From contig NZ_CP019646.1 of assembly GCF_001999965.1 (NCBI RefSeq), positions 2,976,001 through 3,040,000 on the forward strand: a stretch of 64,000 nucleotides of DNA. The letters run 5' to 3'. The translations under genes were made by a program, and so were the position numbers. The notes beneath the pieces are model-generated. The model saw nothing but the letters and a program-made list of their open reading frames with translations, was not told where the DNA came from and ran no database searches. The stretch is from Limihaloglobus sulfuriphilus (GTDB lineage: Bacteria > Planctomycetota > Phycisphaerae > Sedimentisphaerales > Sedimentisphaeraceae). Shown piece by piece: positions 33,589 to 49,815 of the stretch (its first letter is position 1; each line of letters begins with the position of its first letter).

Positions 33589-33693
33589 ATAGAAATTTAA
33601 ATATTAAGCACCCTGCCGCGGAGGCGGGGCGTTACGGGTTTGTTATGTCCCGGTCAGTTATTTAGAGTGATATATTTTTATGGAGGTCACCAA

Positions 33694-36264
33694 ATGAAAG
33701 CATACATTACGATTTTGTTGGTAATTTCAGGGTTTATAAGCCTTGCCCCTGCCGAGCTGGTGTATGAAAGTTTCGAATCGTACACACCCGGCGCGGAAGG
33801 AGGCGGCGGCAGCGGAGACTTGTGGATGAACTGGGCTCCGGCGATGTCAGGAGACCATCCGGCTCCGGGCAACCCGTTTTTGACCCCTTACATTGACACC
33901 GCCGTCAGTTACAGCGGCAGTTATTCGATGATGCTCGAAGCACCTCTTCTGGTCTGGGACGATACTGCCGGCGAGGTGATAGAGTCAAACGCCGGCTGGG
34001 GAGTCATTATACGCGATGACGGATCTACCATGAATCTAAGCGATTACAACGTTATGACTGCTATGGTAAAATCCAACGGGATTACCGGCTGCCGGTTTAT
34101 AGTCCGTGATTCTGCCAACGGCGAGGTTGGCAACGATTTGTTCGATGTTCCAAATGACGGCAACTGGCACAAGATATCCGTGCTGCTCGACGGCCCCGGT
34201 GCAATAACGGCGGTTCAGAGGATACTGCCGTTTTTCAGCGGTGTTGCCTCCGGCGCGACCGGCACACAGCTCTGGATCGACGATATCAAATTTGATACGG
34301 TAAAGACAGTAAACGACATTCTAAGTGTCAGCGGCGCAGGCGGGCCTGTCGGCGGAACAGCTAATTATTCTTTTGTCATGACCGAGCAGCCTTCTGGTGA
34401 TGTTACGTTTACGCTCACACCTGCCGAGCAGCTTGATCTGGGCGAGGGCCTGGGAATGCCGGTTGATATTGTATTCACAAATGCCGACTGGGACAGCCCG
34501 CAGGTGCTCTCGGTGGCTATAACAGACCAGGCGGCTCCGGGCATTGTAGATGTTGCCGTCTCGGCATCAAGTGCTGTTCCCGAATACGACCAGGCTGTTG
34601 ACGGCGGGTTTACAGTTCCGATTTTAGGCCCTTACGGCGCTTTCTATGTGATTTCGCCGGAGACGCCGTTCTGGGGCAGCCCGACAGCACCTTCGGGTGA
34701 CAGCGGGAATGACCTGGCCAACGGTGAGGTGGCATCAAACTTTTATGTACCGATAGACGCGGGAATCGCTGACCTTGTTGAATGGGCTCCCAGCGCATAC
34801 GGTGCGGGCACTCCGGCATACGCCGAGATCACATTTGATTTCGGGTATGTAAAGGATGTTTCTACAATTGATATTTACTACGCGGCCGGTACTTACCCTC
34901 CGGGTGATTTTGAGATTTCCTACAGTGATGATAACGAAACCTTCTCAACACCGCAGGTTTATCCTCCGTATATCGGCGGCCCGATTTCCAGGACGCATAT
35001 TGCCAATGAGACTCCAGTGGCGGCCAGATATGTCAAGCTCATTGTTCATTGCATTGATGATGATCCGGGAAAATGGTTCTTCCTTTCAGAGGTGGAATTC
35101 AACGCTCCCGTTCCAGAGAGGGTTCCGCCGTTCTACACTATCGATGAGAACAACATTCCTGCCGGCAGAAATCCCGATCCGGATCAGAACAAACTGTTCA
35201 ACGGGGTTATAAGTTATGCCGCAGCCTCAAGCGACTATGTGTTCTTTGAAAGGTTTGACAACACACCCTACGACAACGTAATTCTATACGCCGACTACGG
35301 CCGAACAAGAGAATTCTCGAACCTGGTGCTCAACTACTTCGCCGGCTGGGGCGTTTCGGCTCCGGTAGAGGCCAAGCTCAGCTTCAGCGATGACGGCGAA
35401 ACTTACGGCGCACCGGTTACATTTACCGGCTGGCACCAGGGCACAGAAGGCGGCGGAAAGACCGATGCCAGGTCATTTTCTACCCAGAAAGGACGCTATG
35501 TCAAGATGGAGTTTGCCAGGGACACCGGAACTTCTCACGCTCTGCGGCTTGGCGAGATAATCCTGGGCAACAGAAAAGAAGTCAGCTACACAGTAGATGC
35601 TTCTACTCCTGTCTGGGGAGGCGGAACTGCTGCAAGCGGCGATGTCGCGGTAGAGGCGGGCCTTGAGCTGATCAAGATGGGCGATCTGACTAACGGCTAC
35701 ATCGCCAAAGCGGTCGGAGTGGGCCTTGACCCTGACTGGGTTGAATGGGCTCCGGGCGCAGTTGGCGCATCAACGCCGGCTTATGCCCTGATTACGTTTG
35801 ATTTGGGTTCAGTGATCAACGTCAAAAACGTGGCGATCGTTTACTGCTCAAATCCGGGCAGCGGCATTCAGACACCCGGCGGGCTCGAGGCCGCGTTCAG
35901 CACCGACGGCACGAATTTCAGCGGCATGGCAGACACCGGGGCTGTGTTCAGCGAAAATCAGGAAGAGGCCGAGATATTTAACAGCACTTTCGACCTTCCC
36001 GATACAGACGCACGTTATGTTACGCTGAAGATTAAATGCCAGGACGACGACCCTGACAGCTGGTTCTTTATCTCCGAGGTCAAATTCAACTCGTTTGCAT
36101 CTGACTTCAATGATGAGGGCATTGTCGATTCTACTGATCTGTACTACATGGCAGGCGAGTGGCTCCAGAGCGGAGAAAACCTTGCCGCGGATATAGCAGG
36201 CGATGACCAGAGCGTGAACCTGCTTGATTTTTCTCTGTTATGTGCCGAATGGCTGGGTTTTTAA
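33694..36264 (+). CDS. large secreted protein with three discoidin-like modules and dockerin-like tail
   Basis: 856 residues from the ATG at 33694, supported by GGAGG 9-13 bp upstream; an in-frame start 54 bp earlier is less likely. A signal peptide (about 1-20) precedes a jelly-roll domain (about 20-205), a calcium-beta or cadherin-like stretch (about 210-305), and three discoidin-like modules starting at about 320, 485 and 630. Each repeats the Y-x-[IV]-[SD] start, a P-[FV]-W-G or G-R motif and W-x(n)-RYV[KT]. Two EF-hand-like halves (DFNDEGIVDSTDLYYMAGEW and a second ending SLLCAEWLGF) close it: a complete dockerin-like module. Probably binds extracellular glycan. No catalytic residues recognised. 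Confidence 0.8.
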   Translation: MKAYITILLVISGFISLAPAELVYESFESYTPGAEGGGGSGDLWMNWAPAMSGDHPAPGNPFLTPYIDTAVSYSGSYSMMLEAPLLVWDDTAGEVIESNAGWGVIIRDDGSTMNLSDYNVMTAMVKSNGITGCRFIVRDSANGEVGNDLFDVPNDGNWHKISVLLDGPGAITAVQRILPFFSGVASGATGTQLWIDDIKFDTVKTVNDILSVSGAGGPVGGTANYSFVMTEQPSGDVTFTLTPAEQLDLGEGLGMPVDIVFTNADWDSPQVLSVAITDQAAPGIVDVAVSASSAVPEYDQAVDGGFTVPILGPYGAFYVISPETPFWGSPTAPSGDSGNDLANGEVASNFYVPIDAGIADLVEWAPSAYGAGTPAYAEITFDFGYVKDVSTIDIYYAAGTYPPGDFEISYSDDNETFSTPQVYPPYIGGPISRTHIANETPVAARYVKLIVHCIDDDPGKWFFLSEVEFNAPVPERVPPFYTIDENNIPAGRNPDPDQNKLFNGVISYAAASSDYVFFERFDNTPYDNVILYADYGRTREFSNLVLNYFAGWGVSAPVEAKLSFSDDGETYGAPVTFTGWHQGTEGGGKTDARSFSTQKGRYVKMEFARDTGTSHALRLGEIILGNRKEVSYTVDASTPVWGGGTAASGDVAVEAGLELIKMGDLTNGYIAKAVGVGLDPDWVEWAPGAVGASTPAYALITFDLGSVINVKNVAIVYCSNPGSGIQTPGGLEAAFSTDGTNFSGMADTGAVFSENQEEAEIFNSTFDLPDTDARYVTLKIKCQDDDPDSWFFISEVKFNSFASDFNDEGIVDSTDLYYMAGEWLQSGENLAADIAGDDQSVNLLDFSLLCAEWLGF

Positions 36265-36448: not shown

Positions 36449-37987
36449 ATGAGATTCTTAAACCGGCGAGCATTCATCGAATCGGCAGGGTTGTTTTTAG
36501 GTTCTTCGTTTCTATCAGATAATGCTGCGGCTAAGTCTTTCTTAAATTCTGCTCTTGACCGGACGTCTGCTGCAAAACGTAATATTGTGTTTATCTTAAT
36601 TGATGATTTAAGATACGACTGTCTGGGTTTCATGGGGCATCCTTTCCTGAAGACGCCTAATATAGATAAGCTGGTGAAAAACGGGGCAAACTGCCGTAAC
36701 AGTTTTGTTACAACTTCGCTCTGTTCACCCAGCCGCGCATCAATACTGACAGGTCAGTACATGCACAATCATAAGGTTGTTGACAATAATGATATGATGC
36801 CGGCGGATGCTGTTACCTTTCCGCAATTGCTCAGAAGTAATGGATACAGGACAGCTTTTATCGGTAAATGGCACATGGGCAGCAGCAGCGATCAGCCCAG
36901 AGCCGGCTTTGATCACTGGGTCAGTTTTCGCGGGCAGGGCCAATATCTTCCTGAAGGCCAGACTCTTAATATAAATGGGACACGGGTGCCGAGAAAAAAA
37001 TACATGACAGAGGAGTTGACTGATCATGCGGTTAAATGGCTTGAGAACAGGAATGACAAAAAGCCGTTTTTTCTCTATTTGTCTCACAAAGCAATTCACG
37101 GCCCTTATGTTCCTGATAAACGGCATGAGGGTATGTACGCGGAAGAAGAATTCCCCGAGCCACAGACAATGGCAAACACAGAGGACAATTACAAAAATAA
37201 GCCCATGTGGCTGAAAAACCAGAGAAACAGCTGGCATGGTGTTGACTATCCTTATCATACACGTGAGCCTATATCCAAACAGTATAATAGATACTGTGAG
37301 ATGATTCTTTCGGTTGACCAGAGTGTCGGCCGAATTATGCAGGGCCTTAAGGAGAACGGATTTGACAAAAATACTCTTGTTGTTTTCATGGGTGATAACG
37401 GCCACTATTGGGGAGAACACGGCTTAATCGACAAACGAAGCGCATACGAGGAATCTATGCGAGTTCCCCTTTTTGCACATTGCCCCGAGCTTATCAGGCC
37501 CGGCACGGTAATAGAGGAAGTGGTCGCAAATATAGACATTGGGCCGACTCTATTGTCAGCGGCCGGCATTAAAGCACATCAGCAAATGGACGGCACAAGT
37601 TTTCTGCCTTTACTTAAAGGCGAAAAGATTTCAAACTGGCGGGATTTCCTGCTCTATGAATATTACTGGGAATATAATTTTCCGCATACGCCGACAACTT
37701 TTGCCTTGCGAACCGACCGATATAAACTTATACAATATCATGGTATCTGGGATATAGACGAACTTTATGATTTAAAGGCAGACCCCAATGAAAAAAACAA
37801 TCTTATCAACAATCCGGATTATCAGGAATTGATTAAAACGATGAGGGCCCAACTTCATGAAATTCTTAAGCGAGATAATGCAAATGTGATTCCGTTCGGA
37901 GAAAAGAAAGACCATGGCGCAAATTTGAGACACAGACAGGGTGCTGATCCTGCCGAATTTCCGCCTTTTATATTTCGAGAAAACTAA
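36449..37987 (+). CDS. sulfatase, Cys-type (type I)
   Basis: 512 residues. RRAFIESAGLFLGSSFL gives a Tat-like leader. The alkaline-phosphatase-type core starts with VFILIDDLRYD (Asp52, Asp53 as calcium ligands), and the active-site motif is CSPSR with Cys92, to be converted to formylglycine. Further motifs are FIGKWHMGS, MGDNGHYWGEHGL and the family C-terminal NEKNNL. It removes sulfate esters from glycans in periplasm or outside. A formylglycine-generating (anSME-type) enzyme is needed and is not in this window. First gene of a tight nine-gene run: the next gene starts 14 bp later. AGGAAA precedes the ATG. Confidence 0.95.
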   Translation: MRFLNRRAFIESAGLFLGSSFLSDNAAAKSFLNSALDRTSAAKRNIVFILIDDLRYDCLGFMGHPFLKTPNIDKLVKNGANCRNSFVTTSLCSPSRASILTGQYMHNHKVVDNNDMMPADAVTFPQLLRSNGYRTAFIGKWHMGSSSDQPRAGFDHWVSFRGQGQYLPEGQTLNINGTRVPRKKYMTEELTDHAVKWLENRNDKKPFFLYLSHKAIHGPYVPDKRHEGMYAEEEFPEPQTMANTEDNYKNKPMWLKNQRNSWHGVDYPYHTREPISKQYNRYCEMILSVDQSVGRIMQGLKENGFDKNTLVVFMGDNGHYWGEHGLIDKRSAYEESMRVPLFAHCPELIRPGTVIEEVVANIDIGPTLLSAAGIKAHQQMDGTSFLPLLKGEKISNWRDFLLYEYYWEYNFPHTPTTFALRTDRYKLIQYHGIWDIDELYDLKADPNEKNNLINNPDYQELIKTMRAQLHEILKRDNANVIPFGEKKDHGANLRHRQGADPAEFPPFIFREN

Positions 37988-38001: not shown

Positions 38002-41000
38002 ATGTTAAAATATTTAATAAAATTCTTAGTTACTTTGACGTTCTTAACTATAGCTGTTGAGCATATAGACGCAAAACCGATCAGCGGGGCTTTTATCCAG
38101 ATAAACCCGCACATGGCAGGCTACAGCCAGAGCGACTGGGAAGAAGAAGTCTCTCTGATGAAACAGTGCGGCATGGATACCGTCATTGTCTCGGCATCGA
38201 TAAGCGACGGCGGAAAGGCGCATTACCAGAGCTCGCTGGATTTCGTTACAGAGGTTGCAGATACCGCCCTGACTAAGATACTCACAGCCTGCGATGCTAA
38301 CCAGATGAAATGCTTCGTCGGGCTTGTCCACGATAACCGGTGGTGGTCGAGTATCGGCGATGAAGCAGTGCTATCTTCGATGGCGGCCAACAACATAGCC
38401 GCGGCAGATGAGCTTTTATCGGTTGCGGCGGAACACGCCAGTTTTGCCGGCTGGTACGTTACCGAGGAGATAGTTTTTAATGTATGGTCCGGCGATAACA
38501 GAGATATGCTGATCAACACCCTGCTCAATCCGGTTGTGGAGCATCTCAAATCCATCACTCCCGATAAGCCCGCGGCAACGGCTCCTTATGTATATGACAT
38601 AACCGCCGGTGCCGATAACTGCCGGCAGTGGTGGGACAATCTCTTGTCGCGGGTGGATTTTGATATTGTGATGTTTCAGGACGGTTTCGGGGCGGATATC
38701 AACAGAAAGCCCGAGCTGATTGTGCCGTATTTCAAAGGTCTCCGGCAGGCCTGCATCGATAACGGGGCAGAGCTGTGGAACGACCTTGAGGTATTCAATC
38801 AGCCCGACTGGACGGCCAAGACCTTCAGCGATGTCAGGTGGCAGATAAGCCTCAACGAAAAGCATGTCAGCAAGATTGTAACCTGGGAATGGTTTTATAT
38901 CACCCCGACACAGAGAATGAGAAGCGATGTGCGAACCGTTGACAGGCAGAACCTGTACGCCAAACTGCTGTCGCATAACAGGAACCTGAAAATAGCCTCG
39001 CTCAATAAGAACTACACGATGAGCAAACAGCCCTCTGCGAGCTACCCCGACAGTAAAAATAAGCTCACGGATTCACAGATAGATTTTGAAATGGACAGCC
39101 ATCTCGGCTATTATCTCACCTCCGGCTTCGGCGGCGGTACTTCAAGTGTATCCGTTACAATCGATCTGCGTGAGGACGTGCCGGCCGAGTACGGTTTTTC
39201 CGCTGTTTTTATGAACCGCCAGGGCTGGGGAGTAAACCTGCCGGAAAGTGTCGATGTTTATATTTCTGAGGATAACACCGCTTTTGAGAAAATCTCGCAG
39301 CTTGAGACTTTCCCCTCGGCGCAGGATTCGCTCAATGTGTATTTTGATTTTCCGCAAAAAATCATCTCGCCTCGATATGTGCGGTTTGAAATGCGGGGAC
39401 TGGGCTGGCTGATGTGCAGCGAGCTGAGCGTTTACAGGAGCGATATAAAGGGTGATTACAATTCCGACGCGCGTATTGATATAAACGATGTCAACACACT
39501 CAGCCAGAAGTGGCTGGATGGCGGTGATGAGGAGAAAGGCATAAATTACGGCGATTTTGCCGACATCGCAAGAAACTGGAAATGGCAGAGAGACCGCAGC
39601 CTGCATTTCAGAGACAAGTTCTACAAACTGCCCAACGTTCAGCTCTCACAGGGCTCGCCGTACATGCAGAACAGAACCGTTGAAAGTATTGCCTCCGAGC
39701 TGGCTGTCAACGGGGTTGAATCTATCTTCGTTATGCAGACTTCTGTAAACGGGCTCAAGCCCGGCTTAATCGATGCGCTGCGCAGCAGGGATATAGCCCC
39801 GGGGCTGATGCTCTTTGCCGATGCGGTATATACGCCGACCTCCGAGCTGCCCGAGGGCTGGGAGCAGTGGAAGATGGGCTTTCTAAACACCCCGGGCAAT
39901 AATCATTTATCATTTATCCATGACGGTTTTCGAGAGTGGATGAAGCAGCGGGCGGTAAGTCTGTGCAATGATAACGGTTTCGCGGCGGTAACATTTGCCG
40001 AACCGATGTATCCGGTTTACGACGGCATAACCAAATCGTCTGTGCGGTACGCCGATGTTTCGCAGGCGTATCAGGATATTTTTAAAGCCGACACGGGGGA
40101 GAGCGAGTTCCCCAATTTTACAGACCCCTCCGATCCGCACTATTTCAAGACGGATACGGCTCTTTATCAAAAACTCGTGCAGCACCGCATTGATTCGATA
40201 ACAGATTATTTTGATGAGATAATAAACGGTGAAGCGGGACTTAGAGAGTCCGCACCCGATACGATGGTTATAACCTGGTCTCTGGCGTGTTCCAAGCTGG
40301 AAAACGGCGGGGTTGATATTCTGCCCGAGTGGGAAGGCAACGACGCGTACAGCATTGTTAAAAACGCCAAGCCTGATATGCACTACTACCAGACGCACTG
40401 GCCGGACTGGGTTGATCCCCAGCTTTCGCCGGAGCATGTTTACAGCTACATTCCGAATTTCAGAGAGTGCTGGAAAGCCGCGCCGCAGGTAACGGTCGGC
40501 GTGCAGGACGATATCGGCAGCCACGACAACATGAGGCGAAGCAATGAGTATTATCAGAAATATCTCGAGGCCTGCGCCGCCGCCGGCGCGGTAAACTCCA
40601 CGTACTACTGTTTCTCGCTTCGCAGTGATGTATATAACTCCGCTCCGCAGCTAAAGAGAATCAGCCTCAACGACGGCTACGAGATGCCGGATATGGCCGT
40701 CTCGGCTCTGTCGGCGGAAGTTGACCAGAGGGCCGACGAAAACGGCAGACTGCTTCTGCGCATACATACAAAAGACAGTGACCCTGCAAACTGGCTTTTT
40801 ATCTCGGAAATTGAAATCAACGGCGTCTCCGGCGGGTTCACCTACAGCATCTCACCGCTGACGCCGCCGTATTCGGGCAGGCCCGACAATACCGGCAATG
40901 ACCTTGCCAACGGTGTGATAGCGGCGATGAACCTTTCAGATCCCGACTGGGTCGAATGGGCACCGGATGTCCAGGGCGCCGCTGCGTATGCTGATATTGT

Positions 41001-41418
41001 CCTGAATCTCGAGCCCGGAAGCCGGGTGGATTCTATCGATATATACTTCCTCAAATACGCCTCGACACACGTCTATCCCCCAGACCGCATTGAGCTTGGC
41101 ACAGGCTCTTATGACCTCTCTGTCAACAGCATAGACCTTGAGTTTGACCAGAGAGTGCACCCTAACAGCGCAGGGCTTATGATGACCAGAAACATCACCG
41201 ACAGTCTCGGCAATGTCTTCAAAGCGCAGAGAGCCTTCAGAGACGGAAATATGCTTATATTGGAAATGGACAGACAGGTCAAACGCGGCGATGTATTGTC
41301 GGTTGATATCGGCGGCATCAGCGATGATCCCGATTCCCGCTGGACAACGGCAAATATCGCACGGGGCAGCCTCAACACCGCGGCGGCAGGTACTGTAGTT
41401 ACCTTGACAGCGGAGTGA
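38002..41418 (+). CDS. secreted two-enzyme fusion: DUF4434-like barrel, dockerin-like linker, second putative glycosidase barrel
   Basis: 1138 residues with a signal peptide (about 1-24). Order: DUF4434-like barrel about 25-325 with the acidic set GWYVTEE (Glu155, Glu156), FQDG (Asp226), NDLE and TWEW (Glu296); a discoidin-like module about 350-470; a dockerin-like EF-hand pair about 472-530 (KGDYNSDARIDINDVNTLSQ); a second barrel about 535-880 homologous to the protein at 43746-45221 (TFAEPMYP, YYQTHWPDW, VGVQDDIGSHDN); a second discoidin-like module about 880-1025; and a C-terminal beta domain also found in that homologue. DUF4434 is a domain of unknown function related to glycoside hydrolases. 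The internal dockerin is unusual. Enzymatic activity is inferred from the conserved acids only. Confidence 0.8.
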   Translation: MLKYLIKFLVTLTFLTIAVEHIDAKPISGAFIQINPHMAGYSQSDWEEEVSLMKQCGMDTVIVSASISDGGKAHYQSSLDFVTEVADTALTKILTACDANQMKCFVGLVHDNRWWSSIGDEAVLSSMAANNIAAADELLSVAAEHASFAGWYVTEEIVFNVWSGDNRDMLINTLLNPVVEHLKSITPDKPAATAPYVYDITAGADNCRQWWDNLLSRVDFDIVMFQDGFGADINRKPELIVPYFKGLRQACIDNGAELWNDLEVFNQPDWTAKTFSDVRWQISLNEKHVSKIVTWEWFYITPTQRMRSDVRTVDRQNLYAKLLSHNRNLKIASLNKNYTMSKQPSASYPDSKNKLTDSQIDFEMDSHLGYYLTSGFGGGTSSVSVTIDLREDVPAEYGFSAVFMNRQGWGVNLPESVDVYISEDNTAFEKISQLETFPSAQDSLNVYFDFPQKIISPRYVRFEMRGLGWLMCSELSVYRSDIKGDYNSDARIDINDVNTLSQKWLDGGDEEKGINYGDFADIARNWKWQRDRSLHFRDKFYKLPNVQLSQGSPYMQNRTVESIASELAVNGVESIFVMQTSVNGLKPGLIDALRSRDIAPGLMLFADAVYTPTSELPEGWEQWKMGFLNTPGNNHLSFIHDGFREWMKQRAVSLCNDNGFAAVTFAEPMYPVYDGITKSSVRYADVSQAYQDIFKADTGESEFPNFTDPSDPHYFKTDTALYQKLVQHRIDSITDYFDEIINGEAGLRESAPDTMVITWSLACSKLENGGVDILPEWEGNDAYSIVKNAKPDMHYYQTHWPDWVDPQLSPEHVYSYIPNFRECWKAAPQVTVGVQDDIGSHDNMRRSNEYYQKYLEACAAAGAVNSTYYCFSLRSDVYNSAPQLKRISLNDGYEMPDMAVSALSAEVDQRADENGRLLLRIHTKDSDPANWLFISEIEINGVSGGFTYSISPLTPPYSGRPDNTGNDLANGVIAAMNLSDPDWVEWAPDVQGAAAYADIVLNLEPGSRVDSIDIYFLKYASTHVYPPDRIELGTGSYDLSVNSIDLEFDQRVHPNSAGLMMTRNITDSLGNVFKAQRAFRDGNMLILEMDRQVKRGDVLSVDIGGISDDPDSRWTTANIARGSLNTAAAGTVVTLTAE

Positions 41419-41484
41419 GAAAGAAGAAAATAATATTCCGGAAATAATAACTTATTATAATTATAATTTAAATAAAGGAAAACA

Positions 41485-42465
41485 ATGAGAATTACAGGTA
41501 CATTCATTGACGAAATAACGGTTGATATACCTTCGAACAACTGGAGTGCCCGGCACTGGGCTATGGATTTCAGGGCGATGAAGCATATCGGCATAGACAC
41601 AGTGATAATTATCCGTTCGGGCTACCAGAACAAGTGCATCTTCGACTCACAGGCACTGAAGAAACATGTGGGACTGATGATGCCGGTGTTTGAAGATCTC
41701 TTTGAGCTGTTTTTGTCTCTGGCTCAGGAAAACGATATGGATCTATATTTCGGAACTTATGATGATTATGAGATGCAGCACAGCGGCAATCATAAAAAAC
41801 TCATCCAGATAAACAAGGACTTCATAGACGAGGCATGGTCTCGCTACGGCTCGTACGACTCGTTTAAGGGCTGGTACGTCACACAGGAATTAGCGACAAA
41901 GGACGAGCACGGCGCTGAATGTATCAGAGACGTTGGCCTGCACTGCAAAAGCATAACCGGCCAGGATTTGCCGGTTTTGATATCCCCCTTTATCGCCGGC
42001 AGAAAACAGTTTGACAATCCGATTACTCTCGAGCAGCACGAAAATCAGTGGGACTATATGCTCTCTGTTATGCAGGGCGCGGTCGATATTGTGGCGTTTC
42101 AGGACGGAAATGTCGATTACCACGAGCTGCCCGAATACATCGCGGCAAACAAAAAGCTGCTTGATAAATACGGTATGCACTCCTGGAGCAACCTGGAAAC
42201 ATTTGACAGGGATATGCCGTATCTGCGGTTTCCCCCGACAGACTGGCGCAAGCTGTGGTGGAAGCTCGACGCGGCGGAAAAAACCGAAGTTGAGAAAATC
42301 ATCACCTTTGAGTTTTCATCGTTCATGAGCCCGTATTCATGCTGGCCCTCCGCGCATAACCTTTACGACCGGTACTGTGATTATTTCGGAATTGAAAGAC
42401 TGCAGCGCGAAGCTGAAAACGCCTCACAAAACAGACAATTTACAGCCTCCGGTGTTTCCGGTTAA
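41485..42465 (+). CDS. DUF4434-type barrel protein, cytoplasmic
   Basis: 326 residues without a signal peptide. It aligns with the N-terminal barrel of the preceding fusion protein: ITGTFIDEITVDIPSNNWSA at the start, GWYVTQE (Glu135), VAFQDG (Asp207), SNLETF (Glu238) and ITFEFSSF (Glu276). The four acids occupy the same positions as in the fusion, which suggests a shared mechanism. Its lack of a leader implies that it acts on imported oligosaccharide or sugar. It sits between the fusion gene (66 bp) and a UroD-like gene (31 bp). Family function has not been established to my knowledge. Confidence 0.8.
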   Translation: MRITGTFIDEITVDIPSNNWSARHWAMDFRAMKHIGIDTVIIIRSGYQNKCIFDSQALKKHVGLMMPVFEDLFELFLSLAQENDMDLYFGTYDDYEMQHSGNHKKLIQINKDFIDEAWSRYGSYDSFKGWYVTQELATKDEHGAECIRDVGLHCKSITGQDLPVLISPFIAGRKQFDNPITLEQHENQWDYMLSVMQGAVDIVAFQDGNVDYHELPEYIAANKKLLDKYGMHSWSNLETFDRDMPYLRFPPTDWRKLWWKLDAAEKTEVEKIITFEFSSFMSPYSCWPSAHNLYDRYCDYFGIERLQREAENASQNRQFTASGVSG

Positions 42466-42496
42466 CCGCCGCGGAAAATATCAGAAAATCCACTCT

Positions 42497-43699
42497 ATGA
42501 ACATTCAAAATAAGATAGAAAAATATTTGCAGCTCTGTTTGTCTAAGGCCAACAGGGACAAGCAGCGGCTATGGTCGGATTTTCTTGCGCTAAAGCCCTC
42601 GCGGCCGCTGGTAAATGTGTACTTCTACCAGTATGTCTGGCAGAGAGAGATCGATGACGGACGCAGAAACTATGACTGCCCGGTCGCTGATTTTATCGAT
42701 AAACAGATCAGCTACAGGCTCTGGCGGTGGGAAAACATCGATGATGATGCTCCGCTTGAAGAGTTTCTGCGGATTCCGTATGATATTCTGCACCATGCCA
42801 AACAGGTCAACCAGTACCAGAACAGTCTGTGGGGGATCGATATCGAGCTCAGCCAGAACTGTGACCAGGGCTCTTACAGTGTAGTGCCGCCGATAAAAAC
42901 GGAATCTGATATAGAAAAGATAACCCTTCCTCGGTTCGAGCCGCCTCAGGGCCTGGACGAGCTGCTGGAGAGGGCCGAGAGAATCACCGGAGGTTGTTTG
43001 CCGGTGAAGGTTGAAACCGAAAGGATGCACTGGGGCCCGTTCGAGTATATCGTATGGTTTCGCGGCATGGAAAATCTCTTCCTCGATTTTATCGACAACC
43101 CGCGGCTGGTGCACCGGCTGATGGAAATAGCCTCGGCTGGTATAATCCAGTGGCAGAGACAGCGGCAGGCTGCCGGTTTTATCGACAGCGAGCTTTCATT
43201 TTTCGGGCACGTTCCGTATGATGACTTTTGTCTGCATGGAGATTCTGCGAGTCTGAAAAGCTGCTGGGCATATCTGCACGCCCAGTCCAGCGGCACGATA
43301 TCGCCGCAGATGTACGAGGAATTTGTCCAGCCGTACAACGAACGGATCGCCGCACTTGTCGGGCGCGTGTATTATCACGGCTGCGAAAACCTCGACCGCA
43401 AAGCCGCCGTCATAAAGAGACTGCCTAACCTGAGGCTTTTTCACATTTCTCCCTGGTCTAACGTCGAGCCGATACTGGAAGAAATGGGCAGGGGCTTTGC
43501 CTACGAAGTTCACTCACACCCGACCGGCGTACTGAGCAGTTACAGCGATTCGGATATGAGCCGCGAACTCAGCTCGAGAAGCAGTATCGCCGCAGAGGTC
43601 AACCATGTATTGACACTGGCGGATGTCGAAACCGTAACCGGCAGACTTGAACGCGTCCGCGAATGGGTGCGGCTGGCTAACAAAACCGCCCGGGTTTGA
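42497..43699 (+). CDS. uroporphyrinogen decarboxylase-like protein (methyltransferase-type His-X-Cys)
   Basis: 400 residues from the ATG at 42497; earlier in-frame starts would overlap the previous gene. The fold signature is of the UroD/MtaA superfamily (for example PRLVHRLMEIASAGIIQWQR, then SASLKSCWAYLHAQSSGTIS, YYHGCENLD). His294-Gly-Cys296 sits where MtaA/MtbA-type methylcobamide:CoM methyltransferases bind zinc; a third ligand is not obvious, His residues at EVHSHP are candidates. The N-terminal Arg cluster of true HemE that binds uroporphyrinogen carboxylates is not evident. So heme synthesis is unlikely; demethylation or an unknown sugar reaction is more plausible given the locus. Another UroD-like gene lies at 47072-48214. 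Confidence 0.75.
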   Translation: MNIQNKIEKYLQLCLSKANRDKQRLWSDFLALKPSRPLVNVYFYQYVWQREIDDGRRNYDCPVADFIDKQISYRLWRWENIDDDAPLEEFLRIPYDILHHAKQVNQYQNSLWGIDIELSQNCDQGSYSVVPPIKTESDIEKITLPRFEPPQGLDELLERAERITGGCLPVKVETERMHWGPFEYIVWFRGMENLFLDFIDNPRLVHRLMEIASAGIIQWQRQRQAAGFIDSELSFFGHVPYDDFCLHGDSASLKSCWAYLHAQSSGTISPQMYEEFVQPYNERIAALVGRVYYHGCENLDRKAAVIKRLPNLRLFHISPWSNVEPILEEMGRGFAYEVHSHPTGVLSSYSDSDMSRELSSRSSIAAEVNHVLTLADVETVTGRLERVREWVRLANKTARV

Positions 43700-43745
43700 T
43701 TTATGTTTTATATTACTCTCATAAAAACTATAAAGGATTTACAAA

Positions 43746-45221
43746 ATGACAAAGCGTATAAAACTCACACCTCTGTTTGTCGTGTTTCTGTTTTTGGCTG
43801 TTTCCGGCCTGAACACTCTTTACGGCGGGGAGCTTGACCCGATGTCCGCAAAACTGCTCAGCGGCAAAACCGTGCAGGCCGATTTTGGATTCCCGCCTTA
43901 CAAAGACAGAAGCGCTTCGAGCATAGCCGAGGAGATCACCGCCAACGGTTATGACGGGGTGTATTACTTCGTATGCGCAGACAGCACCGTGAGAAAAGAT
44001 ATAATCGCCGAGCTGCAAAAGAGAGAAATTCCGGTAGCCGTGATGCTTATCGCCACCGGAGCGTACCTTCCGGCGAATGAGCGGCCCGAGGGCTGGGAAA
44101 AATGGAAAATGGAGTTTACCAGCGATGTGATGGACAGCTACCAGTTCATGTCGTTTGTCCACAAGGATTACGCGGAGTGGATGAAGCATCGCGTCGTCAG
44201 GCTGATCAATGACTGCGGGTTTGACGGGTTCACCTTCGCCGAGGCGATGTATCCAATCGCCGACGGGCTTGAACGAGAGAATGTTCTTTACGGCGACATC
44301 TCGCCGGCGTTTAGGCAGGCTTTCAAAAAAGATACCGGCAACTCCGTATTTCCCGAATTCGTGGACACGGCTAAAGCCAACTACTATAAAAAAATACCCG
44401 ATGTATATAACGATCTTGTTGAGTACAGGATCAAAACCGTCAATGACTTTTATGATGAAGTCGTCAACGGTCAGGGCGGCGTAAGGGAAAAATGCCCGGG
44501 CAAATTTGTTGCAACCTGGACACTTGGCATCAGTTTGCCGCAGGGCCTTGAAAAACTCCGCGAGTGGGAGGGCAACGATATACCGTCTATGATACGCAGG
44601 GTCAAACCGGATATGCATTTTATCCAGACTCACGCGCCTGACTGGACAAACCCGCAGCTCAAACCTGATTACCCCGGAACATATAAGCCTTTCTTCGATG
44701 CTGTAAAACAGACAGATCCGCAAATGCCGGTAGGTTTTCAGGCGGATTTCGTTTCACATGAAGATATTCGCCGCAGCCCGCAATGGGTAAAGCGGTTTTA
44801 TGAAGTTTGCGGCCGGATGGATATTGACAGCACAACATATTACGTATTCGGGCTGCGGTGGAATGTGTACCACGAACCGCCGCGGCTGTGCAGTGTCAAA
44901 CAAATCTGGAAAGATACTCTCGTTCTCTCTTTCGATCAGCGGATTTCAAAGGACTGTGAAAGAATAGTTGCCGGCAGAAAGATGATAACTGACGATAAGG
45001 GGACACAGTACAGCGTAAAAGATGCCGCGGTTGACGGCAGTCTGCTCAAACTTGTGCTGGACAAAGACATCTGCGGCGCAAAAGAAGCAAAGGTTCTGCT
45101 TGAAGGAATAAAGGACGATCCTGCATATAGATTTGAGAGGCAGGGACCCTGGCAGCCAATGCCCAAAGGAGAGACAAACGTCATAGAAAAGGGCGTGTGC
45201 CTGACACTGCCTGTTGAGTAA
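43746..45221 (+). CDS. secreted putative glycosidase, family homologous to the C-terminal half of the fusion protein
   Basis: 491 residues. A signal peptide (about 1-27) precedes a barrel domain: SIAEEITANGYDGVYYFVCA, RPEGWEKWKMEF, GFTFAEAMYPIADG with Glu166, FIQTHAPDWTNPQL, GFQADFVSHEDIRR and STTYYVFGLRW. These are matched in order in the fusion protein at 38002-41418. The C-terminal beta domain (about 385-491) is also shared. The TIM-barrel shape and the conserved Glu after the fourth strand suggest a glycoside hydrolase; I do not recognise a CAZy family. Two homologues in one operon, one secreted alone, one fused, suggest different stages of the same degradation. Confidence 0.7.
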   Translation: MTKRIKLTPLFVVFLFLAVSGLNTLYGGELDPMSAKLLSGKTVQADFGFPPYKDRSASSIAEEITANGYDGVYYFVCADSTVRKDIIAELQKREIPVAVMLIATGAYLPANERPEGWEKWKMEFTSDVMDSYQFMSFVHKDYAEWMKHRVVRLINDCGFDGFTFAEAMYPIADGLERENVLYGDISPAFRQAFKKDTGNSVFPEFVDTAKANYYKKIPDVYNDLVEYRIKTVNDFYDEVVNGQGGVREKCPGKFVATWTLGISLPQGLEKLREWEGNDIPSMIRRVKPDMHFIQTHAPDWTNPQLKPDYPGTYKPFFDAVKQTDPQMPVGFQADFVSHEDIRRSPQWVKRFYEVCGRMDIDSTTYYVFGLRWNVYHEPPRLCSVKQIWKDTLVLSFDQRISKDCERIVAGRKMITDDKGTQYSVKDAAVDGSLLKLVLDKDICGAKEAKVLLEGIKDDPAYRFERQGPWQPMPKGETNVIEKGVCLTLPVE

Positions 45222-45260: not shown

Positions 45261-47075
45261 ATGAGCAGTAATAATATGATTGACGCCGCGGTAGTGGCAT
45301 GTTACCTGATAATTACTTTCAGCGTCAGCGCGATGAGCGCGCGGTTTTTCAAAAAGAAACATGACTTTGTCAGTGAAGACGGCTACTTCCTCGCAGGCAG
45401 GAGAATGCCGGCATGGCTCAACGGGGTTTCACTGGCCGCGACGGCTCTCAACTCCAACGTAGGCCCGACCTACTGCGGCCTGGCGGTGGTGATCGGCTTG
45501 AGTGTCTGCTGGTACTATATGTCGCTTTTCAATTTTTCACTCTTGTTCGCCGCGTTTGTCTTCGCCGCGAAATGGCGGCAGATCGGCGTCTCGACAGGCC
45601 CGGAGATGGCAAAGCTGCGTTACGCCGGCAACAACGCCCGGGTCATACGAACATACGGCTCGGCCTCCATGATACTGCTGGTGATGGTGCCCTACATCGG
45701 CGTTGGCCTGCTCGGCGTACACGTTGTCATCAGTCCGATATTCAATTATGAAAGCCGCATAATAACGCTGGTGATTGTCCTGCCCGCTTTGCTGTTTTAT
45801 CTCTGGATCGCCGGTTATGCCGGTGTGGTCGTGGCGGATTTTATGCACACAGTCGTAATTGTGCTTGCAGGGGCTGCGCTTATGGTCTCCGTTCTGGTAA
45901 GGTTCGGCTCGCCCATGGCGCTGACGGAAAATATCCAAAGGGTACATTCCGAGAACTCCCCAGCGATACTGTCATTGTTCCCTTCCTGGGGCAATGAAGT
46001 TTTCAACCCGCTTATGATAGTTATATTTTTGCTGATCTACTCACTCGGCGCCGGCGGCAACATCGCCCTCGACGGCCAGAGGATACTCTCATGCAAAACT
46101 GCCAAAGAGGCAACAAAGGTCGGCATATGGGCATTAGGCGCTCTGTTTCTGATGCTGATGGCGATTACACTGCCGACAATCGGCTCACTGATCGATCATC
46201 CCGAATTTTTCAGCGCTTCTCCCTCGCAGCGCGAGCTGATATACGCTATCATGCTCAACGATTATCTGCCGGTGGGTATTCTGGGCATTGCGCTGGCCGC
46301 TATCTGCGCTTCGGCTATGAGTTCGGTTGACAGCATCCTGAGCTACTCTTCCCAGCTTATTGTAAATGACCTTGTACACCCGTTTAAAAAAGACCTCACC
46401 GAAAAACAGGGTATCTTTATCGGCCGAATCTCGATGTTTGTTATCATGGCTCTCTCGGTTATCATTGTGTTCTGGAGCAGCTCTCTCTTTGGCACTGTGC
46501 TGGTAGTAGCCGGTCTGCTGGCGCCGGCGGCGCTGCACGGCTGGGGGCAGTGGTGGTGGTGGCGGCCTAATGTGTACTCGTGGGCAACCGCGATCATCGG
46601 CGGGCCGATTGTATTTCTTTCTGTCGGCTTTTTCCTCAAAAAAATACCATGGTGGCAGCTCCAGCTCGACGCAGGCCCGGCAATGGTACAGCAGTTAGAT
46701 GCGCTGAAAATTGTTATCTCTATGGCGATCACTACGGTTTTGTGGGTGCTTGTGGCTCTTTTGACAAAGCCGGAAGATATGGAAGTTCTCAAGGATTTTT
46801 ACCGCAAGGCAAAACCAAACGGATTCTGGGGGCCTGTAAGAAAGGCGGTAGAGGCGGACGGCGATAACGTGGAAATAAGCAAATATGTCATACTCTCGGG
46901 TCTGCTGGCAGTGATCCCCGTCGCGGCATGGATAAACATGCTCGTCCTGGGATTGTCCGCCCTTTATGTCGGCAGTTATATCAAGGCCTCGCTGCTGCTG
47001 ATCGCGGCGGTTCCTACTGCTTTGATAGCGAAAAGAATTTATACATGGCACGTTGAAAGGCTCGGCGCGGAATGA
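45261..47075 (+). CDS. sodium:solute symporter, SSS (SLC5) family
   Basis: 604 residues with about 13 transmembrane segments. Family signatures: YFLAGRRMPAWLNGVSLAA near the N-terminus, the core GAGGNIALDGQRILSC, and AAICASAMSSVDSILSYSSQ near helix 8-9, which contains the Na+ site Ser residues. It should import a sugar or similar product of the extracellular degradation together with sodium. The stop overlaps the start of the next UroD-like gene by 4 bp (ATGA), linking transport to that enzyme. Substrate not predictable from sequence. Confidence 0.92.
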   Translation: MSSNNMIDAAVVACYLIITFSVSAMSARFFKKKHDFVSEDGYFLAGRRMPAWLNGVSLAATALNSNVGPTYCGLAVVIGLSVCWYYMSLFNFSLLFAAFVFAAKWRQIGVSTGPEMAKLRYAGNNARVIRTYGSASMILLVMVPYIGVGLLGVHVVISPIFNYESRIITLVIVLPALLFYLWIAGYAGVVVADFMHTVVIVLAGAALMVSVLVRFGSPMALTENIQRVHSENSPAILSLFPSWGNEVFNPLMIVIFLLIYSLGAGGNIALDGQRILSCKTAKEATKVGIWALGALFLMLMAITLPTIGSLIDHPEFFSASPSQRELIYAIMLNDYLPVGILGIALAAICASAMSSVDSILSYSSQLIVNDLVHPFKKDLTEKQGIFIGRISMFVIMALSVIIVFWSSSLFGTVLVVAGLLAPAALHGWGQWWWWRPNVYSWATAIIGGPIVFLSVGFFLKKIPWWQLQLDAGPAMVQQLDALKIVISMAITTVLWVLVALLTKPEDMEVLKDFYRKAKPNGFWGPVRKAVEADGDNVEISKYVILSGLLAVIPVAAWINMLVLGLSALYVGSYIKASLLLIAAVPTALIAKRIYTWHVERLGAE

Positions 47076-48214
47076 TCGATTTTGTAAAACACAACGAAGA
47101 AGCCCACAGGGTGTGGGACACTTATAAAAGCGGCAGCCCCATAAGGGTTCCGATGATACTCGGCATCAGCTCGAGGTTCTATCTGCTCGACAAAGATTAC
47201 AACAAAGAGGGGCTGAGCTACAAAGAGTATTTCGAAAACCCCCGAACGCTGATCGAGACACAGTGCCGCATATCGGATTTTCTGCGGCATAATGTACCCT
47301 GGGACACACCGATGGGATTGCCGGAAGATGGCTGGAGCATTATGGCGGATTTCCAGAACGTCTTTGACGCGGCGTGGTGCGGCGCAGAGATTATCTACCC
47401 CGAGAATCAGTGCCCGGATACCCGCCCGCTATTTAAAGATGATAAATACGCCCTGCTGGAAGCGTTTCCAAGAGGTGCTTTTGACGGGGTAATGGCAAAA
47501 GTAAAAGAGGTTCACCAGTGCTTTGAGCAGATGCAGGCGGAGGGATTTGAGCACAAAGGCCGGCCCCTCAAAGAGATTACAGGCACCCCCGGCACGATTA
47601 GCGACGGGGTATTCACCCTGCTCTGCCAGCTGCGGGGCAGCGAGAACGCATGTATCGACATGCTCTGCGATGAAGATTATTTTCACCAGGCAATGACACT
47701 TCTGACACAAAGCACGATAAACCGGATAACACAATGGCGAAAGTATCTCGGTCTGCCGCTCAAGACAGACGGCTTTGCACTGGCGGATGACTTTGTTCAG
47801 CTGCTCTGCGTCGAAGATTACCGGAAAAACGTCCTGCCGTATCACAAAAAGATTTATGATGCTTTCAGTTTCGGCTCGAACAATTTTATGCATCTCTGCG
47901 GCGATGCGACCAGGCATTTCCCTCTGATGGCCGCTGAGCTTGGCGTGAATCGCTTTGATACTGGTTTTCCAGTGGATTTTGACCGGCTCAGAGAGCAGCT
48001 CGGCAAAGACACAGAGATTATGGGCGGCCCGCATATAGAGCTGCTGCTCAACGGCACCAGAGAACAGGTAATCAGCCGGACAAAACAGATATTAAGCGGC
48101 AAGATTAAAAACGGCAGGTTTATCCTGCGAGAAGGCAACAACCTCGCCCCCGGGACGCCAATAAAAAATATTGAAGCCATGTACGAAACCTGTAAGATTC
48201 ACGGCAGATACTAA
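47072..48214 (+). CDS. uroporphyrinogen decarboxylase-like protein 2
   Basis: 380 residues of the UroD-like superfamily. Typical elements include DGWSIMADFQ, LTQSTINRITQWRKYLGLPL, GFALADDFVQLLCVEDYRKN and NFMHLCGDATRHFPLMAAEL. His274-Leu-Cys276 is the motif of cobamide-dependent methyltransferases, and MGGPHIELLL near the C-terminus could supply a further His. This is more typical of the family than the first UroD-like protein in this locus. It overlaps the symporter gene by 4 bp, so they are translated together. No corrinoid protein gene is visible in the window, so methyl transfer to cobamide remains a hypothesis. Confidence 0.8.
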   Translation: MIDFVKHNEEAHRVWDTYKSGSPIRVPMILGISSRFYLLDKDYNKEGLSYKEYFENPRTLIETQCRISDFLRHNVPWDTPMGLPEDGWSIMADFQNVFDAAWCGAEIIYPENQCPDTRPLFKDDKYALLEAFPRGAFDGVMAKVKEVHQCFEQMQAEGFEHKGRPLKEITGTPGTISDGVFTLLCQLRGSENACIDMLCDEDYFHQAMTLLTQSTINRITQWRKYLGLPLKTDGFALADDFVQLLCVEDYRKNVLPYHKKIYDAFSFGSNNFMHLCGDATRHFPLMAAELGVNRFDTGFPVDFDRLREQLGKDTEIMGGPHIELLLNGTREQVISRTKQILSGKIKNGRFILREGNNLAPGTPIKNIEAMYETCKIHGRY

Positions 48215-48241: not shown

Positions 48242-49815
48242 ATGGATAGAAGAAATTTTTTAAAGAACAGCGGTATGGCTGCCGCGGCTTTTGCGCTTTC
48301 AGGCTGTAATCAAAGCTCAAAAATCTTTTCCGGTTTAAAACGCAGCTCAAAACCTAATATCGTTTTTATATATGTTGACGACCAGGACAGGGCCGACCTT
48401 AGCTGTTACGGCGGCAATCTTCTGATGCCAAACATCGACAGTCTGACACAGGAGAGTATGCGGTTTGACAGGTTCTATGTATCATCTCCCGTCTGCACGC
48501 CAAGCAGGTTTTCCGCGTTAACCGGAAGATACGCCTGCAGGGGCGCGGAGATGCAGAAAATCTGGCCGGTGTTTACGGTGAGCAGAACACGATTGCCCAG
48601 GTGATGAAGAAAAACGGTTACAAAACCGGCATTGCGGGAAAATGGATGCAAGGCGTCAGTGACAAAGTCCAGATGATGGACGGCTCTCTCGATGCCCGGG
48701 ATCCTGATGTCGCAAAACGGGTAAAAGAAAATTACAAACACCTGCAGGAATCCGTGAAAAGCACGGGTTTTGATTATGCCGAGAGCCTTTATTATGTAAA
48801 TCCCGGTCAGTGGTGGAGTGATGCCCCGTTATACACTCCAAAAGAGCTTAGACATCACAATCAGGAATGGATTACTAAGGGAGCGATAGATTTTATCGAA
48901 CAATCAAAAGACGAGCCGTTCTTTCTTTATATGCCCACTACGATGGTGCATGATCCAATGGCCCATGACAGCATAAAGGCCGACCCGCAGGTTACGCAGG
49001 CAGGCTACCTGGACGAGGCTCCGGATGTTCAGCCGCCGCGGCACACGATTTTTGAAAGGCTCAAAGGCAGGGGTATTGACTTTGACAATATTAAACCTGA
49101 GCAGGAGATGCAGGCTCATTTTCTCTCCGGAACGCTCTGGCTTGATGACGGCATAGGCGCAGTGCTCGACAAACTGGACGAATTGGCTCTGGCGGATAAT
49201 ACCGTTGTCATATACGCCAGCGATAACGGAAGAAAAGCCAAGTTCTCAACCTATGATTCAGCGGCCAAGATGCCCTGCCTGATCAGATGGCCAGGGAAAA
49301 TAAAACCGGACAGCGTCTGCAATGAACTTGCCTCGAACATAGATTTCGCGCCTACGATATATGACATCTGCGGCATCACCCCGCCGTCGAATGCCGTGAT
49401 CGACGGCAAGAGCCTTTTGCCGGCTCTGACGGGAGGCCGCTATAAAAGGGATCATATTTTCATGGAGATAACGGTTGAAAGAGCTGTGGTAACTGATGAC
49501 CGGTTCAAATATATAGCCGTGCGCTATCCTCCTCAAATACGGGAAAAAGTTGACAAGGGCGAGTTGTATAACCATTGGTGTCAGCCGATGGAGTTCGGGG
49601 TGTGGGGGCATTCCTACAATGCCGAGCTGTATTACCCGTCGTATTTTGATGCCGACCAGCTCTACGACCTCAGCAAAGACCCTCACGAACAAAATAATCT
49701 TGCAGACAACCCTGACTATTCTGAAAAACTAACTCAGATGAAAAAAATTATGCGAATGTACAGCAGGAATCTGCCCCATCCCTTTGCGGAATTTAAAAAG
49801 AAAAATCAGTCATAA
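48242..49815 (+). pseudogene. sulfatase gene with a frameshift
   Basis: Two overlapping frames form one sulfatase. The first (48242-48604) has a Tat/lipoprotein leader (RRNFLKNSGMAAAAFALSGC) and the active-site CTPSR with Cys85, then loses the family pattern after GRYACRG. The second frame (open before 48601) continues GDAENLAGVYGEQNTIAQVM, KNGYKTGIAGKWMQG, and runs to the normal C-terminus at 49815 with VIYASDNGRKAKF. The shift lies near 48539-48550 at CAGGGGCGCGG. It could be a true mutation, a sequencing error in the GC-rich run, or a programmed slip. If restored, the protein is a full-length Cys-type sulfatase of about 525 residues. Confidence 0.8.

Follow-up and report, generated by a model that had tools for sequence, protein, structure and literature searches.

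The closest characterized folds to the two protein families considered here are those of glycoside hydrolases (GHs). DUF4434 (PF14488), represented by the solved structure 4H41 (BT_0435 of Bacteroides thetaiotaomicron), has the GH164, GH5, and GH42 glycosidases of clan GH-A as its nearest characterized folds. The second family, called barrel 2 here, most resembles the GH153 domain at the C terminus of PgaB (Escherichia coli, 4P7L; Bordetella, 6AU1), which hydrolyzes poly-β-1,6-glucosamine and belongs to poly-N-acetylglucosamine (PNAG) export operons, followed by Cwp19 of Clostridioides difficile (5OQ3; GHL10, PF02638). The probable catalytic acid of Bordetella PgaB is D474, the equivalent of E. 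coli Asp466 (PMC5933820), and Cwp19 has a glycine at the β7 position (PMC5765458). Here, we describe a locus of Limihaloglobus sulfuriphilus that encodes both families joined in one secreted protein and each of them again as a stand-alone protein. The locus lies in a 64,000-nucleotide stretch (positions 2,976,001 to 3,040,000 of NZ_CP019646.1; hereafter the window), part of a single-contig genome of 3.87 Mb. The three open reading frames (Table 1) and the order of DUF4434, discoidin-like, dockerin-like, and second-barrel domains within the fusion agree with a preliminary description of the sequence, the linker modules matching below threshold.

We propose that the locus is probably a glycan degradation system of two triosephosphate isomerase (TIM)-barrel glycosidase families, directed at an amino-sugar-rich glycan. 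The two-glycosidase part, which the preliminary description had also put forward, is well supported by structure and conservation, the function itself being predicted: both families are modeled as high-confidence TIM barrels with invariant acids at the strand ends where glycosidases bear their catalytic acids, and they are fused in several lineages. No confident match of the second domain to a nonglycosidase family was found, and the acids in the predicted structures are not scattered.

Both DUF4434 domains in the window are members of PF14488, scoring 145 bits in the fusion and 233 bits in the stand-alone protein against a gathering score of 30 bits. The stand-alone protein starts at the domain start with no leader and is cytoplasmic, as had been described, and its model superposes closely on 4H41 (Z, 44.0; root mean square deviation [rmsd], 1.4 over 300 residues; 46% identity), which makes it a straightforward member. 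The fused DUF4434 domains, unlike BT_0435, form a separate secreted clade and are joined to barrel 2. Four acids had been singled out from the sequence, and all of them cluster at the barrel mouth in the model (Glu135 after β4, Asp207 after β6, Glu238 at the end of β7, and Glu276 after β8). Across 29 DUF4434 proteins, invariance among the four is confined to Glu135 and Glu238; Asp207 is absent from a third subgroup, and relatives carry Thr, Asp, Gln, or another residue in place of Glu276. In the model, DUF4434 is a (β/α)8 barrel with glutamates at the ends of β4 and β7, the arrangement by which clan GH-A is recognized, and their catalytic role is predicted. It shares with GH5, GH42, and GH164 the fold (Z, 19-20) and these two invariant glutamates, but no common sequence family. 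Because the invariant glutamates lie at the β4 and β7 ends, the model suggests a retaining mechanism. The third subgroup (L084:7448-8821, L016:7643-8953, and relatives) has an N-terminal extension and has lost the FQDG motif while keeping both invariant glutamates. A Pfam control also gave a DUF4434 match in E. coli, for which the gene was not located.

The second barrel is an unnamed family in Pfam and NCBIfam: no family describing the barrel was found in either library among 50 aligned members, and no PDB chain was matched by sequence. Its AlphaFold2 (AF2) model (predicted local distance difference test [pLDDT] score, 93.7; predicted template modeling [pTM] score, 0.92) is a (β/α)8 barrel with eight strands in order, followed by a C-terminal β sandwich. 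In the model, Glu134 stands directly after β4 (129-133), the QTHxPDW motif at the end of β6 (258-263), and Asp302 directly after β7 (297-301); in the full stand-alone protein, these are Glu166, residues 294-300, and Asp334, with His296/Asp299 at the end of β6. No variation in Glu166, Asp334, or the QTHxPDW motif was seen among 50 sequences from five phyla (29-68% identity to the window protein), and the two acids fit a predicted glycosidase active site. Of the motifs listed in the preliminary description, both window copies have FAE-x-MYP and QTH-x-PDW; SH-[DE] is common to these two copies only and gives way to GSQ, GSS, GSM, and others in relatives. That description had called both families uncharacterized; the second domain has no Pfam, NCBIfam, or PDB sequence family, and the structure of a DUF4434 member, 4H41, is already solved.

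The PgaB GH153 domain is the closest PDB fold to barrel 2 (Z, 25.0; rmsd, 3.1 over 299 residues), with Cwp19 (Z, 22.9) and GH42 (Z, 22) next. In a profile alignment, barrel 2 scored 44.2 against E. coli PgaB, compared with at most 32.5 among 150 unrelated proteins and at most 25.8 among 60 shuffled controls, so that the similarity is weak but above the controls. The alignment sets FDGFTFAE of barrel 2 on FDGILFHD of PgaB and thereby places Glu134 (Glu166) on Asp466, the β4 acids being aligned. The differences are nonetheless considerable: identity is 11%, the glutamate of barrel 2 is preceded by Ala instead of His, barrel 2 has an invariant Asp after β7 and a C-terminal β domain of its own, and it occurs in catabolic clusters rather than in operons for PNAG export. 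None of the 50 members matched GHL13 (PF14883) at an E value of 0.1, and the catalytic Asp after β4 (D474 in Bordetella, D466 in E. coli) is replaced by Glu in 50/50 members, the carboxylate being kept. Because the family model and the catalytic residue both fail, barrel 2 is a relative of GH153 in fold, and weakly in sequence, but not a member. With Cwp19 it shares the fold and the acid at the end of β4, whereas Cwp19 has Gly at the β7 position and barrel 2 its invariant Asp after β7; GHL10 was matched below threshold in 2 of the 50 members (best E, 0.011), and the window protein had no match at an E value of 1. Descent of barrel 2 from DUF4434 by duplication was rejected (profile comparison probability, 1.9%), though the few aligned columns do pair both β4 glutamate regions.

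It is conceivable, but in our view improbable, that barrel 2 is a catalytically weak or noncatalytic glycan-binding or surface domain of glycosidase descent, the catalysis being left to DUF4434. Inactivated TIM barrels are common, and the PgaB domain itself was at first believed inactive (PMC5933820), but the invariance of Glu166, Asp334, and QTHxPDW over such divergent sequences argues against this reading, as does the small size of many members, which are cytosolic and lack binding modules. We give similarly little weight to a nonhydrolytic reaction of barrel 2 on glycosides (phosphorylase, transglycosidase, or elimination), with Gfo/Idh oxidoreductases and ADP-ribosylglycohydrolase-like proteins alongside. 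In favor of such a reaction are the Gfo/Idh-like genes that, by eye, accompany barrel 2 in many loci and the ADP-ribosylglycohydrolase-like genes in eight; Gfo/Idh genes are, however, common in such genomes, none was seen in the window cluster, and the acids of barrel 2 sit where classical glycosidases carry theirs.

Searching one genome per species with an eight-sequence alignment as the query returned 57 barrel-2 loci, a lower bound that is limited by the search patterns. They are spread over five phyla, occurring in Planctomycetota, Lentisphaerota, Armatimonadota, and Bacteroidota and mostly in Paenibacillus. Phycisphaerae and Sedimentisphaerales records were among the matches. A single-sequence scan of genome contigs gave no match, unlike the alignment scan, and neither did scans of plasmid and viral sequences. 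Among 392 Planctomycetota genomes, barrel 2 was found in the window's own genome only, and the family is therefore rare in this phylum. The split between extracellular and intracellular steps proposed in the preliminary description holds in the window, where the stand-alone barrel 2 has a signal-peptide-like N terminus and DUF4434 is leaderless, but it is not general: by a crude hydrophobicity test, 28 barrel-2 relatives have signal-like N termini and 21 (mainly Paenibacillus and its kin) have no room for a signal peptide, and the DUF4434 domains of the fused clade are secreted. At L021:9427-12012, some 390 residues that by eye contain propeller-like repeats, and that have no Pfam match, come after barrel 2.

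Five proteins, encoded in four genomes of two phyla, were found to carry DUF4434 fused to barrel 2: that of the window, L016 and L017 in one genome (G005), L020 (L067 is the same protein), and L074 from Chthonomonadales. In L020 and L074, the domains are joined directly, with no room for a discoidin/dockerin linker. The window gene set recurs in another genus (L016), and other Planctomycetota as well as Armatimonadota carry separate fusions; the arrangement of fused and stand-alone genes is thus not a chance pattern. Both families are indeed encoded alone as well as fused, as had been noticed, but neither stand-alone protein is a copy of a fused half. The two window barrel-2 proteins are about 40% identical and the two DUF4434 proteins 25% identical, and a recent duplication inside the window was rejected, as the stand-alone genes belong to separate subfamilies at different tree positions. 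Of the stand-alone proteins, DUF4434 falls in the BT_0435-like clade, which is leaderless, and barrel 2 groups with L016, inside the larger clade that also holds the Victivallis proteins. All fused DUF4434 domains form one clade (Shimodaira-Hasegawa-like approximate likelihood ratio test [SH-aLRT], 92), but the barrel-2 domains of the fusions are split between two parts of their tree, a single clade being rejected (P = 3e-80 by the approximately unbiased [AU] test, on a quick tree with long branches). Because only the former are monophyletic, the trees would imply either that two fusions drew on one secreted DUF4434 lineage or that one fusion was followed by losses. At L019:6751-8027 (G005), a truncated barrel 2 (196 amino acids [aa]) abuts a truncated DUF4434-like gene; the pair are apparently decaying copies.

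What the two barrels degrade is suggested by their neighbors elsewhere. In nine genomes, chosen for having DUF4434 and with related clusters, so that the P values overstate independence, 10 of 24 N-acetylglucosamine (GlcNAc)-2-epimerase genes lay within 10 kb of a DUF4434 gene (0.3 expected; P = 1.6e-13), as did 8 of 16 phosphodiester glycosidase genes (P = 1.7e-11) and 6 of 28 GH20 genes (P = 2e-6). DUF4434 is fused to a GH20 β-hexosaminidase in a relative's genome (L111:6144-8720), an Armatimonadetes metagenome-assembled genome has barrel 2 joined to a GlcNAc-2-epimerase-family domain in one protein (L030:8675-11359), and NanE is encoded near barrel 2 in seven Bacillota loci. Because of these linkages and fusions and the relation to PgaB, gene content suggests amino-sugar glycans as the targets. 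Within the window, substrate sulfation is likely, since the partners there are a sulfatase, a sodium symporter, and uroporphyrinogen decarboxylase (URO-D) superfamily genes. The preliminary description had named sulfated algal or fungal glycans as candidate substrates; a sulfatase gene does adjoin the fusion, but the conserved neighbors and fusion partners elsewhere point to amino sugars.

A less probable alternative is that both barrels are glycosidases of a sulfated algal polysaccharide (e.g., fucose or galactose based), the amino-sugar neighbors in other genomes being incidental. An intact sulfatase directly upstream of the fusion gene and a second, frameshifted one downstream would fit it, as would a GH27-like gene (by eye) in the L016 cluster and the label of 4H41 as a putative alpha-L-fucosidase; that label, however, has no activity behind it in the sources consulted for this report. 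Against this alternative stand the linkage of DUF4434 to epimerase, phosphodiester glycosidase, and GH20 genes and its GH20 fusion, together with the NanE linkage and epimerase fusion of barrel 2.

Beyond the overstated independence of the linkage tests, several points weigh against an amino-sugar-directed pair of glycosidases. No epimerase, NanE, or GH20 is encoded at the window locus, where sulfatases and URO-D genes are the closest neighbors. Barrel 2 and PgaB are weakly similar (hhalign probability, 64%; 16% identity over 114 columns), and at the aligned catalytic place the Glu of barrel 2 stands opposite an Asp of PgaB. TIM barrels reach Z scores of about 20 against many glycosidases, and the fold alone thus leaves the reaction unfixed. 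A literature search returned no paper naming DUF4434, PF14488, or DUF4127, and one for BT_0435 returned only unrelated gene expression papers.

Read together, the domain content, the folds (modeled and, for DUF4434, also seen in a solved relative), the invariant residues with their strand positions, the repeated fusion, and the gene linkage would allow catalysis, retention or inversion, the order of steps, and the substrate to be predicted for the amino-sugar-directed system. DUF4434 would be a clan GH-A-like hydrolase with Glu135 as the acid/base and Glu238 as the nucleophile, and barrel 2 would be a distant PgaB/GH153-GHL10 relative with Glu166 as the catalytic acid and Asp334 as the second carboxylate. 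In the fusion, both barrels would act extracellularly on successive linkages of one glycan, and the discoidin/dockerin-like modules would serve as a spacer or for surface attachment. The secreted stand-alone barrel 2 would trim further, the symporter would import the products, and the cytoplasmic DUF4434 would finish them. The glycan would most likely be amino-sugar rich and, in the window, also sulfated.

Table 1. Features of the locus, in window positions
Feature	Position	Strand	Details
Sulfatase with SGSH_C domain	36449..37987	+	PF00884 E 2.9e-65, PF16347 E 3.4e-47; directly 5′ of fusion gene
Secreted fusion protein, 1138 aa	38002..41418	+	Signal peptide, DUF4434 barrel, discoidin/dockerin-like linker, second barrel, C-terminal β domain
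DUF4434 (PF14488) barrel of fusion, residues 27-301	38080..38904	+	Pfam E 4.3e-42
Fusion linker: F5/8 type C (401-475), dockerin-like (483-521)	39202..39564	+	Both weak, under Pfam gathering scores
Second barrel of fusion, residues ~538-890, unnamed family	39613..40671	+	Profile match E 4e-193; no Pfam match
Inserted segment, residues ~905-1043	40714..41130	+	End of one discoidin-like repeat, then start of next; separates barrel 2 from C-terminal β domain
C-terminal β domain of barrel 2, residues 1042-1138	41125..41415	+	Second profile segment, model positions 357-439
Stand-alone cytoplasmic DUF4434, 326 aa	41485..42465	+	Pfam E 6.7e-69; AF2 pLDDT 91.6
URO-D superfamily gene (methyltransferase-like)	42497..43699	+	Probable start 42497; PF01208 E 1.6e-07; separates both stand-alone genes
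Stand-alone secreted second-family (barrel 2) protein, 491 aa	43746..45221	+	Glu166, His296/Asp299, Asp334
Sodium:solute symporter	45261..47075	+	PF00474 E 3.1e-33
Second URO-D superfamily gene (MtaA/CmuA-like)	47072..48214	+	PF01208 E 8.3e-21; L017 homologue 42% identity

The preliminary description had overlooked a second discoidin-like segment of the fusion, which is out of register. In the fusions of the window and L016, the C-terminal β domain of barrel 2 is broken by a piece of a discoidin array (residues ~905-1043 in the window protein), which has 37% identity (BLAST E, 3e-11) to the discoidin-like repeats of the neighboring protein at 33640-36264 and 51% identity to the equivalent L016 insert; L017 has no insert. 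Judging from its repeat boundaries, the insert may fold as a circularly permuted discoidin domain. Matches to DUF7846 (E, 0.0083) and GHL6 (E, 0.14) were dropped as falling under the cutoff.

Homologues of the symporter adjoin DUF4434 or barrel 2 in L016, L017, L019, and Victivallis (L022). The downstream sulfatase is frameshifted, its N-terminal part, with a CTPSR motif, being open from ~48244 and the remainder (48601-49815) lying in another frame; it is a pseudogene or an assembly error. URO-D/methyltransferase-like genes recur next to DUF4434 or barrel 2 in the window (by Pfam) and in L017, L115, L119, L120, and L030 (by eye), with no corrinoid partner noticed nearby. In L035:5208-14112 and similar Paenibacillus loci, a leaderless barrel 2 is found with NanE, DUF4127, Gfo/Idh-like genes, a β-lactamase-fold protein, and an ABC transporter, and this catabolic cluster, as yet uncharacterized, recurs.

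More tentatively, and at less than even odds, barrel 2 may be a new GH family related to but distinct from GH153 that forms with DUF4434 a dedicated amino-sugar-glycan route in several phyla, possibly for N-acetylmannosamine (ManNAc)- or phosphodiester-containing bacterial surface polymers, with single secreted two-step proteins assembled at two separate places in the tree. With the named targets that the locus provides, two enzyme activities can be sought together, one in a family without a name that is present at 57 or more loci and the other in an uncharacterized family with a solved structure, and the fusion together with the linkage to N-acetylhexosamine enzymes narrows the substrates worth testing. 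The most valuable part is the second family, which is unnamed in the libraries searched (Pfam and NCBIfam). If the amino-sugar reading is true, it would make sense of a recurring gene set, found in Planctomycetota, Lentisphaerota, Bacteroidota, and Paenibacillus, to which the family libraries used assign no function.

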